Assembly: GCF_014202505.1 (NCBI RefSeq)
Contig: NZ_JACHGW010000002.1
Location: 1,240,001 to 1,304,000, forward strand
From: Armatimonas rosea
GTDB taxonomy: Bacteria > Armatimonadota > Armatimonadia > Armatimonadales > Armatimonadaceae
Reading direction: 5' to 3'
DNA: 64,000 bases
Shown one piece after another: positions 28,009 to 34,641 of this stretch. Position 1 is the stretch's first letter, and each line of letters opens with the position of its first letter. Below the pieces are notes generated by a model. The model made no database searches. It was not told where the DNA came from and saw only the letters and a list, made by a program, of their open reading frames with translations. A program made the position numbers and the translations under genes.

Positions 28009-28620
28009 CTAGCGTCGCCGAATCCCATGTAGGAGGAAGTCCAGCATCGCGTTTGCCTGGGTCTCCAGCCCCCGGCGGCACGACGGACTGGCGTGACAGG
28101 GGTTCAGGTAGGGCGGGAAGAAGGGGACCATGGCGAGCAGGAAGAGCGACGCGGCCTCGGTGGGCGTGCCGGGCAGGTCGAAGTCCCCCTCGGTGAGCAC
28201 CTGGGTGAGGAGCTCCAGCTGCGCCTTGCGCTCGGGCTGGCCACACTCCATCAGGCGCGGCGAGAGCAGCTCATTGACCAGCTCCGTCCCGTGCACCGTC
28301 ACCTGCGCGACATCGTGCACCGAGAGCACCGCAGCCAGCAGCATCCGCCGGAGCTTCTCCTCGGGCGAGGCCAGCGACTCGGTGATGGCGCGCATCTGGT
28401 CGGTGACATTGCGCTTGACCTCGCGGGCCAGGGTCAGCAGGAGCTCCTCTTTATTGTCAAAGTAGAGGTAGACCGTCCCCTTACCAATCCCCGCATCCGC
28501 CGCGATCTCGTCGATCGTGGTCTTCTTAAAGCCGTAGTGCAGAAAACGCTTGCGTGCTACCTCAAGGATGGCCCGCCGCGTCTCCTCGCCCCCTCCACAG
28601 TTGTTCTCTTTGATTGCCAT
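28009..28620 (-). CDS. TetR-family transcriptional repressor
   Basis: A 203-residue TetR regulator. The N-terminal helix-turn-helix is IDEIAADAGIGKGTVYLYF (residues about 37-55). It is preceded by the first helix (ILEVARKRFLHYGFKKTT) and followed by the NKEELL block. The C-terminal ligand domain is specific to this protein; ligand unknown. It lies 55 bases upstream of the ECF sigma gene, same strand. Matching 23-bp sites sit at its own transcription start and at the sigma promoter. Confidence 0.93.
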   Translation of the reverse strand: MAIKENNCGGGEETRRAILEVARKRFLHYGFKKTTIDEIAADAGIGKGTVYLYFDNKEELLLTLAREVKRNVTDQMRAITESLASPEEKLRRMLLAAVLSVHDVAQVTVHGTELVNELLSPRLMECGQPERKAQLELLTQVLTEGDFDLPGTPTEAASLFLLAMVPFFPPYLNPCHASPSCRRGLETQANAMLDFLLHGIRRR

Positions 28621-28621
28621 G

Positions 28622-28644
28622 TGACTAAAATCGTATTCTGGTCA
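28622..28644. promoter_or_regulatory. Candidate TetR operator at its own promoter
   Basis: TGACT-N14-GTCA, 23 bases, overlaps the predicted tetR transcription start (about 28640). It shares TGACT, the central CGT, and GGTCA with the site at 27969-27991. Confidence 0.6.
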
Positions 28645-28646
28645 TG

Positions 28647-28676
28647 AGTGTACCACCCCCTCTCTCGGTTTGTCAA
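28647..28676 (-). promoter_or_regulatory. Sigma-70 promoter of tetR
   Basis: TTGACA (28676-28671), 18-base spacer, TACACT (28652-28647) on the minus strand; near consensus. The leader would be about 20 bases. Confidence 0.7.
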
Positions 28677-28751
28677 GAGTATATGCGATAAAATTTTCGT
28701 GTTTTTTATGTCGTTGTCCCGCGAAGGGGCGTCGAGGGCGTACAGAAAGGC

Positions 28752-29279
28752 GTGACTGCATTGACGGAACCCGCTTCGAGCGGCTATACTCCCACCGACT
28801 TGGGAGAGGCTGTTGTGGAGATAAATGAGGGGGAGGAGGTGATCCTTGCCTGGCGCATCCACCGACTGCGGGACGAGCCGCAGAAGATCGGGCTGGTGGC
28901 GCTGGGCTATGGGATCGCCTTTGCGTTCTGGTGGCTGGCCTTTCCCTACCCCCTGGGGCTCTTCCTCCCCGTGGTTGCCCTTACCGGCGCGATGTCGGAG
29001 TACCTTCTGCCCGTGGACTACAAGCTCACCAACCAGAAGGCCTACTGCTCCTGCGGCCCCGCGATTAAGCTGGAACTGGCCTGGAGCGATATCCGCCGCG
29101 CCACGGTGGGCAAGGACGGTATCTACCTCTCTACCTTAAAGATTCCCTCCCGCCTCGACTCCTTCCGCGGGATTCGCCTGCGCTTCTCCAAAGACAACGA
29201 GAACGAGGCACTCCTGCGCGAGACCGTCAAGCGCTTGCTGCCGCGCGACGAGCCTAAAGATAAAGAGGAGACGCCATGA
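28752..29279 (+). CDS. Membrane operon gene 1: two-segment protein with PH-like domain
   Basis: A 175-residue protein starting at GTG 28752 (GAAAGG upstream). After an N-terminal acidic stretch come two membrane segments (about 51-85, with the pair FWWLAFPYPLGLF). A soluble C-terminus follows whose pattern (VDYKLTNQKAYCSC, then LELAWSDIRRATVG) resembles bacterial PH domains. It is the first of six genes packed without gaps to 32937. No function is known to me. Confidence 0.72.
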   Translation: MTALTEPASSGYTPTDLGEAVVEINEGEEVILAWRIHRLRDEPQKIGLVALGYGIAFAFWWLAFPYPLGLFLPVVALTGAMSEYLLPVDYKLTNQKAYCSCGPAIKLELAWSDIRRATVGKDGIYLSTLKIPSRLDSFRGIRLRFSKDNENEALLRETVKRLLPRDEPKDKEETP

Positions 29280-29560
29280 GCCTGGCGCAGTGGAACGAGC
29301 CCCTGCCGGAGGCGGAGCGCGAGGAGCTCTTAGAGAAGGTGGCCACGCAGGTGGCACGACGAGGGCTGAGTGTGCCCGCTATTATCGCCCTGGAGATGCA
29401 CCGGCCCATGGCCTTTGTGCTCTCCCAGGGAATGATCGCACTCACCCCACTCTTTGGCCCGCTGGTCGGGCTAAACCGGATGCAGACCTTGGGACGCTTG
29501 CTGGCAGAGCCCGGCGGTGTCGAGGCACTCATCCGTCGCATTGAGGATAAAACCATATGA
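29276..29560 (+). CDS. Membrane operon gene 2: small protein
   Basis: A 94-residue protein, mostly helical, with an acidic N-terminus and one hydrophobic stretch (AFVLSQGMIALTPLFGPLVG). It overlaps both neighbours by four bases (ATGA at each end), so translation is coupled on both sides. Not recognised; probably a membrane-associated accessory subunit. Confidence 0.7.
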   Translation: MSLAQWNEPLPEAEREELLEKVATQVARRGLSVPAIIALEMHRPMAFVLSQGMIALTPLFGPLVGLNRMQTLGRLLAEPGGVEALIRRIEDKTI

Positions 29561-30378
29561 ACCACGCAACTGGGCCTGCTTTTATCCTGCTGCTGGCAAT
29601 GTCGGTTGTCATTGTCATGACCGTCGTCTCGGCGCAGCGGGGAAAACAGTACTTTATTCGGCGTATTCCCGGACTCTCGGCTATCGATGAAGCCGTGGGG
29701 CGCGCCGTGGAGATGGGACGAGGGATCCTGCTCTCCACCGGCCTCTCCGATGGGATCGATATCATCACGCTCCAGGCACTGGCCATCTGCGCCAATGTCG
29801 CGGCCTCGGCGGCGCGCTACGGCACGCGAGTCCAGATGCCGGTCTACAACTCCGCCATGCTGCCAATCGCCGAGGACACGATCTCCAATGCCTACAACCA
29901 GGCCGGCCGCGGCGATGCGTACTCCCCCGACGATGTGCGCTATCTCTCCAACCAGCAGTTCGCCTACGCGGCGGGTGTGGCCGGGATGATCCAGCGCGAG
30001 AAGTTCGCCGCGACCTTCCTCTTTGGGACGTTCTTCGCCGAGTCGCTGATCATGGCAGAGAACGCCAACATGGTCGGAGCGATCCAGGTGGCCGGGACGC
30101 CATCGACCACGCAGGTGCCCTTCTTTATCGCCGCCTGTGACTATGTCATTATCGGAGACGAGTACTACGCCGCGACTGCCTATCTCACGCGCCAGCCGAC
30201 CCTGCTAGGCTCGATGGTGGGCCAAGACCGGGTGAAGATTGGGATCCTGGCGATGGTGGTGGTGGGCGCACTCTGCACGAGCTTTGTCAAGCCCCTCCAG
30301 CACCTCTTTGGTAACCTGCTCTCCGATCAAAATGTCCCCATTGGGAAGCTCTTGGACGCTCCCGAGGAAGGAGGCTAG
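29557..30378 (+). CDS. Membrane operon gene 3: DUF6754-like membrane protein
   Basis: A 273-residue protein with an N-terminal anchor (FILLLAMSVVIVMTVVSA). A conserved cytoplasmic or interfacial core follows, marked by IDEAVGRAVEMGRGILLSTG and EDTISNAYNQAGRGDAYSP. Further hydrophobic segments lie near 140-165 and 225-245. I recognise the core as DUF6754-like from memory; no biochemical role is established. It is probably the signature subunit of the operon. Confidence 0.72.
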   Translation: MNHATGPAFILLLAMSVVIVMTVVSAQRGKQYFIRRIPGLSAIDEAVGRAVEMGRGILLSTGLSDGIDIITLQALAICANVAASAARYGTRVQMPVYNSAMLPIAEDTISNAYNQAGRGDAYSPDDVRYLSNQQFAYAAGVAGMIQREKFAATFLFGTFFAESLIMAENANMVGAIQVAGTPSTTQVPFFIAACDYVIIGDEYYAATAYLTRQPTLLGSMVGQDRVKIGILAMVVVGALCTSFVKPLQHLFGNLLSDQNVPIGKLLDAPEEGG

Positions 30379-30380
30379 CT

Positions 30381-31361
30381 ATGGGAATGCTCTTTTTAGG
30401 ACTGCTACTGGGGCTGGTAGCGCTCTTTATTCTCACCCTCGTGCCCAACCGGCTCCGCAAGCCCCTGATCGCAGCGGTCACCCTGCTCTCGGGCTGTTTC
30501 TACGCGGTGGAGTTCTTCCTGCCCACCGGCGCGGTCGTGGCCAACAACAAGCAAAAGGCCGAGCTCATCAAGAAGTTTGGCGAGCAGCCCTCCACCCCCG
30601 TGGCCGAGAGCGAGATCACGGTCAAGCTGGAGCCCGATGCCCTCAAGAAGCTTCAGGAGCTCCCGCCCTCCGATGCACGCCTCGTGCTCAAGCAGCTCCC
30701 CACTGATGCGCCCAAGCCGCTCACCGCAGACGATGTCGAGAAGCTGACGGCACAGGAGAACTTCCTGACCCCGCGGCTGCAGACCGCCTCGGATGTCTCC
30801 AATGTGCTACAGGCCTTCGCGATCGGGCTGGGGATCTGGTCCCTGGTCTCGGTGCACCTGCGCAATATCGCGATGAAGCGCTCCGGCTGGGGCAACTCCG
30901 CGACCCTGATCGCAGCGATTGTCCTCATGGCACTGGCCCATATCGGCAAGGAGTATGTCAAAGAGGGGCCCTTCAAGACCCTCGATGACCTGCTCTACAA
31001 CGGGCTGATGAAGAACCTGGACGCCACCATGTTCTCCATTATCGCCTTCTACATTGTCTCCGCTGCCTACCGCGCCTTCCGTATCCGCTCCCTGGAGGCG
31101 ACCATTCTCCTCGTGGCGGCGGCGCTGGTGATGCTGGGCAATGTCCCGATTGGCCAGGCGCTCACCAACTGGATCCCCAACGACAAGCTTAGTGTCCTAA
31201 CCAACCTGCGCCTGGAGAATATCGGGCAGTGGATCCTCAAGAAGGCAAGCTCGCCCGCAACCCAGGCGATCGACTTTGGGCTGGGCGTCGGAGCGCTGGC
31301 CACCTCGCTGCGGCTCTGGCTCTCGCTGGAGCGTGGCTCGTACTTTGAGGAGGAGCTCTAA
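30381..31361 (+). CDS. Membrane operon gene 4: polytopic membrane protein
   Basis: A 326-residue protein. Two N-terminal segments are followed by an extracytoplasmic or cytoplasmic charged domain (about 55-130; helical, rich in Lys, Glu and Pro). Four or five further segments sit at about 135-290. Not recognised. It starts two bases after gene 3 and ends one base before gene 5. Confidence 0.7.
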   Translation: MGMLFLGLLLGLVALFILTLVPNRLRKPLIAAVTLLSGCFYAVEFFLPTGAVVANNKQKAELIKKFGEQPSTPVAESEITVKLEPDALKKLQELPPSDARLVLKQLPTDAPKPLTADDVEKLTAQENFLTPRLQTASDVSNVLQAFAIGLGIWSLVSVHLRNIAMKRSGWGNSATLIAAIVLMALAHIGKEYVKEGPFKTLDDLLYNGLMKNLDATMFSIIAFYIVSAAYRAFRIRSLEATILLVAAALVMLGNVPIGQALTNWIPNDKLSVLTNLRLENIGQWILKKASSPATQAIDFGLGVGALATSLRLWLSLERGSYFEEEL

Positions 31362-31362
31362 G

Positions 31363-32256
31363 ATGAAACTGCTTAGTGACCTGCTGAAGAAGCTCAGTAA
31401 CCTGGACCGCCGCTACCTCTACCTGATGCTGGCGATTGTTATCGCGATCCCACTCCTGGTGCCCGTGGTCTCCAAGCCGCTCCCCAAGCCCGCGATCACG
31501 AGCTTCACCAAGAGCTACTACGACGCAATCGAGGGAGTCGCCAACGATCCGGCGGCCAAGAACAAGATCGCCATTGTCGCCTGCAACTTCGCCGCAGGGA
31601 CCCTGGCGGAGAACCTCTCCCAGTGCGAGGCGACCGTCCGCCACCTGATGATGCGCAAGGTCAAGTTCGCTATCTTTGGCTTCAGCGACCCGCAGGGCCG
31701 CGAGCTTGGCCAGCAAGTGGTTGATAAGCTCGCCAAGGAGTACGACTACCAGTACGGCCGTGACTATGTCAACTGGGGCTACCGGCCCGCAGGTGCCTCC
31801 GTGGCCCTGATCAAGTCCGCAGTCAACGACCTGCCAGGTGCCCTGGGCAAGGACACGCGTGGGACCAATGTCGCCGATGTCCCCTGCATGGCGGGGATCA
31901 AGGGGGTCAACGATGTCTCGCTGATCGTCGAGATCGCCTCCGCCTCGACCTACGGGGTCTGGATTCAGTTCTACCAGCGCGCGGGCAAGCAGCCCATTCC
32001 CACCCTCTACTGCCCGACCTCGGTCATGGCAACCGAGGCGATCCCAAAGCTGGACTCCGGCCAGCTCCAAGGAATGCTCGTGGGGCTCAAGGGCGCGAGC
32101 GAGTACGAGCTCCTGCTCAAGGCCGAGGGGTTTGCGTCGTCGGCATCGGCATCGCTCTCCCTCTCGCACCTGCTGATCCTGGTGCTGATCGTGCTGGGAA
32201 ACCTGGGAATGTTTATGGAGCGCAAGCAGCGCGCACTGGCTGAGGGAGGACGCTAA
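31363..32256 (+). CDS. Membrane operon gene 5: anchored extracytoplasmic domain
   Basis: The ATG at 31363 gives 297 residues. One membrane segment near 20-38 and a second near the C-terminus (LILVLIVLGNLGMFME) enclose a domain of about 210 residues. That domain has alternating strands and helices (IAIVACNFAAG, FAIFGFSDPQG, VPCMAGIKGVNDVSLIVEI) suggestive of a Rossmann-like sensor or binding fold. Function unknown. Confidence 0.7.
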   Translation: MKLLSDLLKKLSNLDRRYLYLMLAIVIAIPLLVPVVSKPLPKPAITSFTKSYYDAIEGVANDPAAKNKIAIVACNFAAGTLAENLSQCEATVRHLMMRKVKFAIFGFSDPQGRELGQQVVDKLAKEYDYQYGRDYVNWGYRPAGASVALIKSAVNDLPGALGKDTRGTNVADVPCMAGIKGVNDVSLIVEIASASTYGVWIQFYQRAGKQPIPTLYCPTSVMATEAIPKLDSGQLQGMLVGLKGASEYELLLKAEGFASSASASLSLSHLLILVLIVLGNLGMFMERKQRALAEGGR

Positions 32257-32259
32257 ACC

Positions 32260-32937
32260 ATGAGTGATGGAATGCTCAAGTCGATTGTGGTGCTTCTGGG
32301 AGTGCTCACCACTCTGGGAATCTACTCAATCCTCTACAAAGAGAATAAGGTCTTCCGCTTCTTCGAGCACCTCTACCTGGGGCTGGCGGGCGGCTACGCG
32401 ATCGCGGCCAACTGGAACGATGTGCTCAAGCCCACTTGGTGGGAGCCGATGACCACCGATCCAGGCAAGAACTGGTGGATGGCGGCGCTCCTGCCCGCCG
32501 GTGCCCTGTTCTACTTTATCTACTCCAAGAAGAACGGCTGGATGGCACGCCTGATCTTTGGGCTCTTTATCGGCTTCGCCGCCGGGCAGTCGTTCCAGAG
32601 CTTCGCGGGGGACTACTTCCCGCAGTTCAAGAATGTCGCCACCAAGCCGCTCTGGGTGGAGGCCGACAAGATCAAGCCCGACTATCCGGTCGGGGCCTAC
32701 GCCACCGTGCTCAACAACTGGCTCGCACTGGCGATCCTAGGAGCCGTGATGGTCTACTTCTTCTTCTCGTTTGAGCAGAAGAACAAGACGGTCAATAAAG
32801 TCTCCAAGTTCGGGCGCTACGCCATGATGGTCGCCTTTGGCGCGATGTTTGGCAACACGATCATGGCCCGTATGGCGCTGCTGATCGGGCGCATCTACTT
32901 CCTGATCCACGCCCCCGAGTCCATGAGCGGGCACTAG
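32260..32937 (+). CDS. Membrane operon gene 6: polytopic membrane protein
   Basis: A 225-residue protein with about six hydrophobic segments (MLKSIVVLLGVLTTLGIYSI at the start; WLALAILGAVMVYFFFSF near 150). It starts three bases after gene 5 and is the last gene before the operon terminator. Not recognised. Confidence 0.7.
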   Translation: MSDGMLKSIVVLLGVLTTLGIYSILYKENKVFRFFEHLYLGLAGGYAIAANWNDVLKPTWWEPMTTDPGKNWWMAALLPAGALFYFIYSKKNGWMARLIFGLFIGFAAGQSFQSFAGDYFPQFKNVATKPLWVEADKIKPDYPVGAYATVLNNWLALAILGAVMVYFFFSFEQKNKTVNKVSKFGRYAMMVAFGAMFGNTIMARMALLIGRIYFLIHAPESMSGH

Positions 32938-32951
32938 CAGCCGGGGATTGT

Positions 32952-32972
32952 CCGGGGATTGAAAATCCCCGG
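32952..32972. repeat. Small GC-rich hairpin before the operon terminator
   Basis: CCGGGGATT-gaa-AATCCCCGG, a perfect 9-bp stem with a three-base loop, 15 bases after the operon's last stop. Confidence 0.6.
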
Positions 32973-32983
32973 CAGAAGAGAGG

Positions 32984-33041
32984 GAGCGTCCCGGGGACGC
33001 GCGGAGCCTATGGGGTTCTGCGTCCCCGGGACGCTCTTTTT
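32984..33041 (+). terminator. Intrinsic terminator of the six-gene membrane operon
   Basis: A perfect 17-bp stem (GAGCGTCCCGGGGACGC 32984-33000 with its complement at 33020-33036), a 19-base loop and TTTTT. The stem bears the same GCGTCC/GGACGC module as repeat family A. Confidence 0.88.
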
Positions 33042-33045
33042 CCTG

Positions 33046-33069
33046 AGGCGGGGATTTCCAATCCCCGCC
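33046..33069. repeat. Repeat family A module, copy 2
   Basis: GGCGGGGATT-tcc-AATCCCCGCC, a perfect 10-bp hairpin; the same module as at 52-73 and 34618-34641. It ends four bases before the TAAACT promoter of the glycosidase. Confidence 0.8.
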
Positions 33070-34553: not shown

Positions 34554-34641
34554 GCCGGGCAATCAACTGCCCGGCACAAGCTCTGTACGCCGCGTCCTCG
34601 GGACGCTCCCTCTCTGGAGGCGGGGATTTCCAACCCCCGAC
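34554..34641. repeat. Composite palindromic repeat, family A copy 3
   Basis: Three modules follow the glycosidase stop: GCCGGGCA-N6-TGCCCGGC (34554-34575), GCGTCC-tcg-GGACGC (34592-34606) and AGGCGGGGATTTCCAACCCC (from 34618). The middle block 34590-34611 is identical to 22-43. No gene occupies 34552-34650. Confidence 0.8.

Follow-up and report, generated by a model that had tools for sequence, protein, structure and literature searches.

The six genes g1 to g6 at positions 28752-32937 of a 64,000-nucleotide stretch of the Armatimonas rosea genome (contig NZ_JACHGW010000002.1, positions 1,240,001 to 1,304,000; the whole stretch is called the window) encode the membrane part of a module that has eight components. 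The two other components are a MutL-family ATPase and a protein of about 378 amino acids with an RnfC-like barrel-sandwich domain, named BSH here. This membership was well shown by gene order and co-occurrence. A sequence-only reading had proposed an undescribed membrane operon with a DUF6754-like core, and this proposal was supported. All six open reading frames (ORFs) were found on the forward strand as first described, and their junctions were verified. The g1 gene (28752-29279, 175 amino acids) has a GTG start with a Shine-Dalgarno-like AGAAAGG just upstream, and g2 (29276-29560, 94 amino acids) overlaps both g1 and g3 by ATGA. The DUF6754 (PF20539) gene g3 (29557-30378) is followed, with gaps of 1-3 bases, by g4 (30381-31361), g5 (31363-32256), and g6 (32260-32937). 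For g5 the ATG start is sufficient, and a longer TTG-start ORF overlapping g4 is not required.

The conservation of the operon was surveyed using one genome per species, which gave 80 related loci, or 82 records including the window and a fragment from its own genome. Genomes are designated G (the window's genome is G000) and loci L. Homologs identified with iterated profiles were present in 66 (g1), 68 (g2), 82 (g3), 81 (g4), 81 (g5), and 76 (g6) of the records, and g1-g6 were complete in 60, the window included. Most of the incomplete Armatimonadota records ran off the end of a contig, g3-g6 were present in ten Poribacteria loci, L035 had no g1 match, and in L034 g1 lay about 1.6 kb off. The genes of the related loci were on one strand, in the order g1-g2-g3-g4-g5-g6 without exception. 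The flanking genes of the window (TetR, ECF sigma factor, GHL10 hydrolase, RuvC-like) accompanied the operon in the nearest relative, L002, and in no other locus. Because the order recurs invariably while the flanks are kept only in L002, the grouping is far beyond chance. Recurrence of gene order had been set beforehand as a test, and the data showed that the six-gene order recurs across genomes; the proposal thus withstood this test. DUF6754 was present in 252 of 291 Armatimonadota, in 59 of 59 Poribacteria, and in 24 of about 106 genomes from a sample outside the phylum (one genome per family, Poribacterium G387 included). It was single-copy in the window genome and was found in none of 14 model-organism control genomes.

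The two further parts were found in deep-branching Armatimonadota, where g2 and g3 lie about 3 kb apart and the MutL and BSH genes occupy the space between them. The eight-gene order g1-g2-MutL-BSH-g3-g4-g5-g6 was present in L084, L087, L089, L090, L093, and L094, and the MutL protein encoded between g2 and g3 was a MutL-family ASKHA ATPase (PF13941, E 2e-125). The window genome contained exactly one MutL gene (G000:C1:1053168-1054934) and one BSH gene (G000:C2:607029-608159), each as a lone gene elsewhere. The match of the former to PF13941 (G000:C1:1053186-1054595, E 2e-121) covered the full profile (1-450), and its ATPase motifs DCGSTTTKA, DIGGATTDV, and GSGGVLAHAP were intact; in the MutL alignment the first two motifs were invariant and the third largely so. 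In some other Armatimonadota (e.g. G206, G217, G223, and G235), MutL adjoins BSH apart from the g3 operon, which is an intermediate between the eight-gene operon and the dispersed state of the window genome. In the window lineage, MutL and BSH have been relocated within the genome, and this explains the apparent lack of any enzyme among the six genes. The earlier description of six genes without an enzyme was incomplete, as the widespread unit has eight genes, including the MutL ATPase.

Co-occurrence of MutL and BSH was determined in 62 genomes (58 Armatimonadota and 4 Poribacteria). Their presence was identical, with both genes in 50 genomes and neither in 12 (Fisher P 5e-13, a value inflated by kinship among the Armatimonadota). 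All 42 DUF6754-positive genomes of this set had MutL and BSH. Twelve of the 20 genomes without a DUF6754 match also lacked MutL, BSH, and g5 (G001-G003, G005, G006, G015, G016, G045, and G047-G050, all Armatimonadota), which apparently reflects several independent complete losses; in the other eight, MutL and BSH were present, six being in assemblies less than 88% complete and one having g5. Outside the phylum, co-occurrence was counted for BSH in 80 genomes of the family-level sample, which is far less affected by kinship, and BSH was present in 22 of 24 DUF6754-positive genomes in comparison with 0 of 56 DUF6754-negative genomes (P 1e-17). That unrelated genes were grouped by chance, or by history alone, is a reading for which the unlinked MutL and BSH genes of the window genome could be cited, but its probability is negligible. 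The order of the module is unbroken while its flanks change, MutL, BSH, DUF6754, and g5 are gained and lost jointly, and the grouping by chance was refuted by this co-occurrence across lineages.

A further 30 loci outside Armatimonadota were read for gene architecture. The full eight-gene order was present in L112, L116, L118, L127, L130, and L137, and seven of the eight genes, with g1 absent, were present in L131. Two tandem g3-g4-g5-g6 cassettes were found in L113, L115, L118, and L130, and several in L114, while extra cassettes without the core (g1, g2, MutL, and BSH) were found in L119-L124, L126, L129, L136, and L138-L140. BSH was single-copy in nearly all genomes, DUF6754 reached up to six copies, and several genomes had one core together with two to six cassettes. 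The tree of 71 DUF6754 domains contained two large non-Armatimonadota cassette groups, with supports of 96/95 and 89/95. Members of both groups occurred within G382, G417, G357, G450, G451, and G452, and therefore a single core appears to serve both cassette types, which separated in ancient times. The stable stoichiometric complex of g1-g6 proposed in the sequence-only reading may form, but in several genomes cassette and core copy numbers differ, so that a 1:1 ratio of all the parts is improbable there.

We analyzed the topologies of g1-g6 from hydropathy and charges. The g3 protein was a full DUF6754 member (306.9 bits, in comparison with the Pfam gathering cut-off of 27 bits; E 1.2e-91; profile 13-249 of 257). 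Its AlphaFold model (pLDDT 91.4) showed a transmembrane helix at residues 6-27, an alpha/beta domain at 40-211, and a long C-terminal helix at 214-243, which is also a transmembrane helix. In deeper lineages an N-terminal extracytoplasmic region, with weak matches to Fn3/Ig-like domains, stands ahead of these. The alpha/beta domain is probably cytoplasmic, because positive residues follow the first transmembrane helix and the Fn3/Ig region precedes it. At about 50 positions of g3, identity among the lineages sampled reached 90% or more. The g5 protein has an N-terminal transmembrane helix, an alpha/beta domain, and a C-terminal transmembrane helix (AlphaFold pLDDT 94.8), and E83, Q234, G237, G241, G244, and N280 were invariant. 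Since its positively charged ends lie inside, the g5 domain is probably extracytoplasmic, and the model fits the anchored Rossmann-like domain predicted earlier. The g3 and g5 models had no match in the PDB at the threshold of E <= 0.001, with low TM-scores, so that no known complex was recovered, and a PDB sequence search with either protein gave nothing significant. Weak fold matches were of a generic Rossmann-like kind (for g3, an RCK domain and MurG) and were not used as identification.

None of g1, g2, g4, g5, and g6 matched a Pfam or NCBIfam family above cut-off. The two polytopic proteins predicted from the sequence are g4 and g6, and both have strongly conserved Arg-containing motifs. 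A FSLLAFFIASAAYRAFRARS-EATLLL motif was conserved in g4, and N29, E36-H37, YFFFS, and GxxxxLMxxFGAxFGxTVMxRxxLLIGR were conserved in g6. The g1 protein consists of a central hydrophobic segment, probably a hairpin, followed by a hydrophilic C-terminal domain; W34, W111, L126-x-P128, and R139-G140 were conserved in its family. It may have the PH-like fold proposed in the sequence-only reading, but no bPH profile matched it in the Pfam and NCBIfam searches. The g2 protein has one moderately hydrophobic stretch, with E40 and P44 invariant. In one deep-branching locus (L089:8406-9644), a large insertion on the extracytoplasmic side of g4 looks like a carbohydrate-binding-module beta-sandwich but has no Pfam match, and large insertions were also seen in g6 of L133 and L100. 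No substrate-binding domain was recognised in the outer regions of g3, where the Fn3/Ig-like matches were weak, or in the insertions of g4-g6.

MutL/GlmL is known as a chaperone that reactivates glutamate mutase (PMC4682846). On this precedent, the module could be a membrane-associated biosynthetic or B12-linked complex, in which MutL would be a chaperone that uses ATP to reactivate a mutase or a DUF6754 enzyme. Such a role would fit three loci outside Armatimonadota (L116:14582-17781, L118:170-1594, and L137:13700-18237) at which glycine cleavage genes immediately precede g1 in the same direction; these genes were gcvPB and, where the locus reaches further up, gcvPA, gcvH, or gcvT. However, this neighbourhood is not general. 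MutL fell below the NCBIfam cut-off for every GlmL model (TIGR01319/NF040745, 169.9 vs 204 and 222 vs 475 bits), and the glutamate mutase E subunit, the only B12 mutase checked, was found in 0 of the 50 MutL-positive genomes. The MutL protein of the module is therefore not the usual glutamate mutase chaperone; it is linked to membrane genes instead. The link to glutamate mutase was rejected on the missing E subunit, and the B12-linked complex as a whole is improbable.

The BSH protein was also compared with known families. Its Pfam matches to RnfC_N (E 1e-4, 22.8 vs 25.6 bits) and NQRA_N (6e-4, 20.3 vs 25 bits) were below the cut-offs, as was the NCBIfam match to RsxC (0.002, 16.6 bits vs a cut-off of 345). 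The match spans about 40-90 residues, and the remainder resembles nothing found. These scores raise the idea of an ion-translocating or redox membrane complex related to Rnf/Nqr, with BSH in the role of RnfC or NqrA. However, the likeness is confined to the barrel-sandwich part, and no SLBB, Fe-S, or flavin match was found in BSH, which in the window genome contains only one cysteine. No RnfA/B/D/E/G or NqrB-F homolog was detected among g1-g6 with Pfam and NCBIfam, and those complexes have no place for MutL. Membership in Rnf/Nqr was rejected on the sub-threshold scores and the single cysteine, and an Rnf/Nqr-like complex is very unlikely, indeed nearly excluded. A PDB sequence search with BSH and MutL gave nothing significant.

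We tentatively favour a modular, ATP-driven envelope complex in which a cytosolic MutL-BSH core acts on exchangeable membrane cassettes, for transport or assembly. This reading fits best because the module combines a cytosolic ATPase and adaptor, membrane parts, outer domains, and a shared core with exchangeable cassettes. The eight proteins would form one inner-membrane complex, and the soluble MutL-BSH pair would dock on the cytoplasmic DUF6754 domain. Binding and hydrolysis of ATP by MutL would switch the membrane cassette (g3-g4-g6) to another state, and the cassette would relay this change across the membrane to the g5 domain outside and to the Fn3/Ig region of those g3 proteins that have one. 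The likeliest job of such a machine would be to move, load, or remodel a cell-envelope substrate. ECF (energy-coupling factor) transporters of group II have a shared energising module and several substrate (S) components; by analogy, cassette types that share one core may serve different substrates. The likeness lies only in the logic of one core with exchangeable cassettes, and we use it as a working analogy with no claim of membership: no ABC ATPase, EcfT, or S-component match was found in g1-g6, and no ABC ATPase or membrane-domain match in MutL or BSH. The PilMNOP platform of type IV pili likewise joins an ASKHA ATPase to bitopic and polytopic membrane proteins, but its topology differs and no PilM, PilN, PilO, PilP, or PilQ match was found here.

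Several observations weigh against an envelope machine. No transporter, channel, secretion, or enzyme signature was found with Pfam and NCBIfam in any of the proteins except MutL, and no substrate gene was found next to the module often enough to suggest a cargo. The MutL family is best known for a soluble chaperone of glutamate mutase reactivation, not a membrane motor (PMC4682846), and physical contact between the eight parts is itself something that we infer. Three DUF6754-positive genomes outside the phylum had a weak BSH match (G378) or none (G406 and G425), so a cassette may function without the core or together with one that has diverged.

The strongest rival to the envelope machine is a membrane receptor or signalling complex, which we consider unlikely. 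The outer Fn3/Ig region and g5 would sense, DUF6754 would make, break, or bind a nucleotide-like ligand, and MutL and BSH would be downstream switches. The approximately 50 near-invariant DUF6754 residues resemble a ligand or active site (they include R35, R49, E52, Q134, R147, E162, E168, Q177, Q186, C194, D195, E202, D224, and K227), the outer regions are variable while the inner core is constant, and paralogous cassettes have one common core, all of which would suit a sensor. However, g4 and g6, polytopic and extremely conserved, exceed what a sensor needs, no linked output domain, histidine kinase, cyclase, or regulator was found, and near-universality in one phylum suggests housekeeping. 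A passive inner-membrane scaffold or envelope tether, with neither transport nor catalysis, would be consistent with a phylum-wide, mostly single-copy module that has outer beta-sandwich domains and no enzyme motif in g4-g6. The conserved ASKHA ATPase and the cytoplasmic domain rich in invariant polar residues are hard to explain in this way, and a mere scaffold is quite unlikely. An anti-phage defence system was also considered and rejected, as PADLOC gave 0 matches for the eight proteins.

The surroundings of the operon were also investigated. The strong 17-bp terminator described after g6 was found in part as stated: a perfect 17-bp stem and a T-run are present (32984-33036), but the stem belongs to a dispersed palindromic element (32953-33067, no strand). 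This element is a GC-rich palindrome with the stem GAGCGTCCCGGGGACGC and has several intergenic copies in the same genome, with partial copies at positions 21-74 and 34591-34639 of the window and a copy at L109:9944-10084; the unlinked MutL gene, on another contig, is directly followed by one of the copies. The element may double as the operon terminator. Upstream, the intergenic region at 28621-28751 (no strand), presumed to be the operon promoter region, separates g1 from a divergent TetR-family gene on the minus strand (28009-28620). This gene is conserved beside the operon no further than L002, and for this reason regulation by TetR is not argued.

In most Fimbriimonadales loci (e.g. L053, L056, and L059) GlmU-Prs lies upstream of the operon, and in 27 loci of this order a RecO-like gene, named by reading only, lies downstream; these flanks are a stable housekeeping neighbourhood. 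In Poribacteria (e.g. L050 and L052) the g3-g6 cassette comes after aroK-aroB. In gammaproteobacteria aroK-aroB come after the pilMNOPQ genes, and this likeness is probably a coincidence. The neighbours in Fimbriimonadales, Poribacteria, and the glycine-cleavage loci had no common theme. In several Armatimonadota (L096:7885-9470, L099:7506-9271, and L086:7031-10215), only the DUF6754 gene is duplicated in tandem (g3-g3) within the operon, and the tandem copies paired within each genome in the tree. No relative of DUF6754 or BSH was found among the viral contigs of IMG/VR, and the two are thus not phage-borne in that collection.

The whole system matches none of the systems tested, and its parts belong partly to the known families PF20539 and PF13941. 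The Pfam entry for PF20539 is a sequence family without function or partner and mentions no operon, MutL, or BSH. The open-access literature that was searched contained no mention of DUF6754 and no description of the partner set of MutL, BSH, and g1-g6, and for GlmL and for novel families it yielded general background only. In the present analysis eight protein families, of which seven lack a functional annotation, come together in a single module. Nearly all genomes of two phyla have this module, as do about a quarter of the genomes sampled from other lineages. Partners are assigned, apparently for the first time, to PF20539 and to an orphan branch of PF13941, and the unlinked MutL and BSH genes become predicted subunits. 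It is possible, but rather doubtful, that the module represents an unrecognised class of ATP-driven envelope machine that uses a MutL-type ASKHA ATPase instead of ABC, AAA, or Sec; such a class would have exchangeable four-protein cassettes that fall into two ancient types, and it would occur in many bacterial lineages and in nearly all Armatimonadota and Poribacteria. If a transport or assembly machine of this kind is confirmed, a major envelope system would have been overlooked because the standard model organisms lack it.

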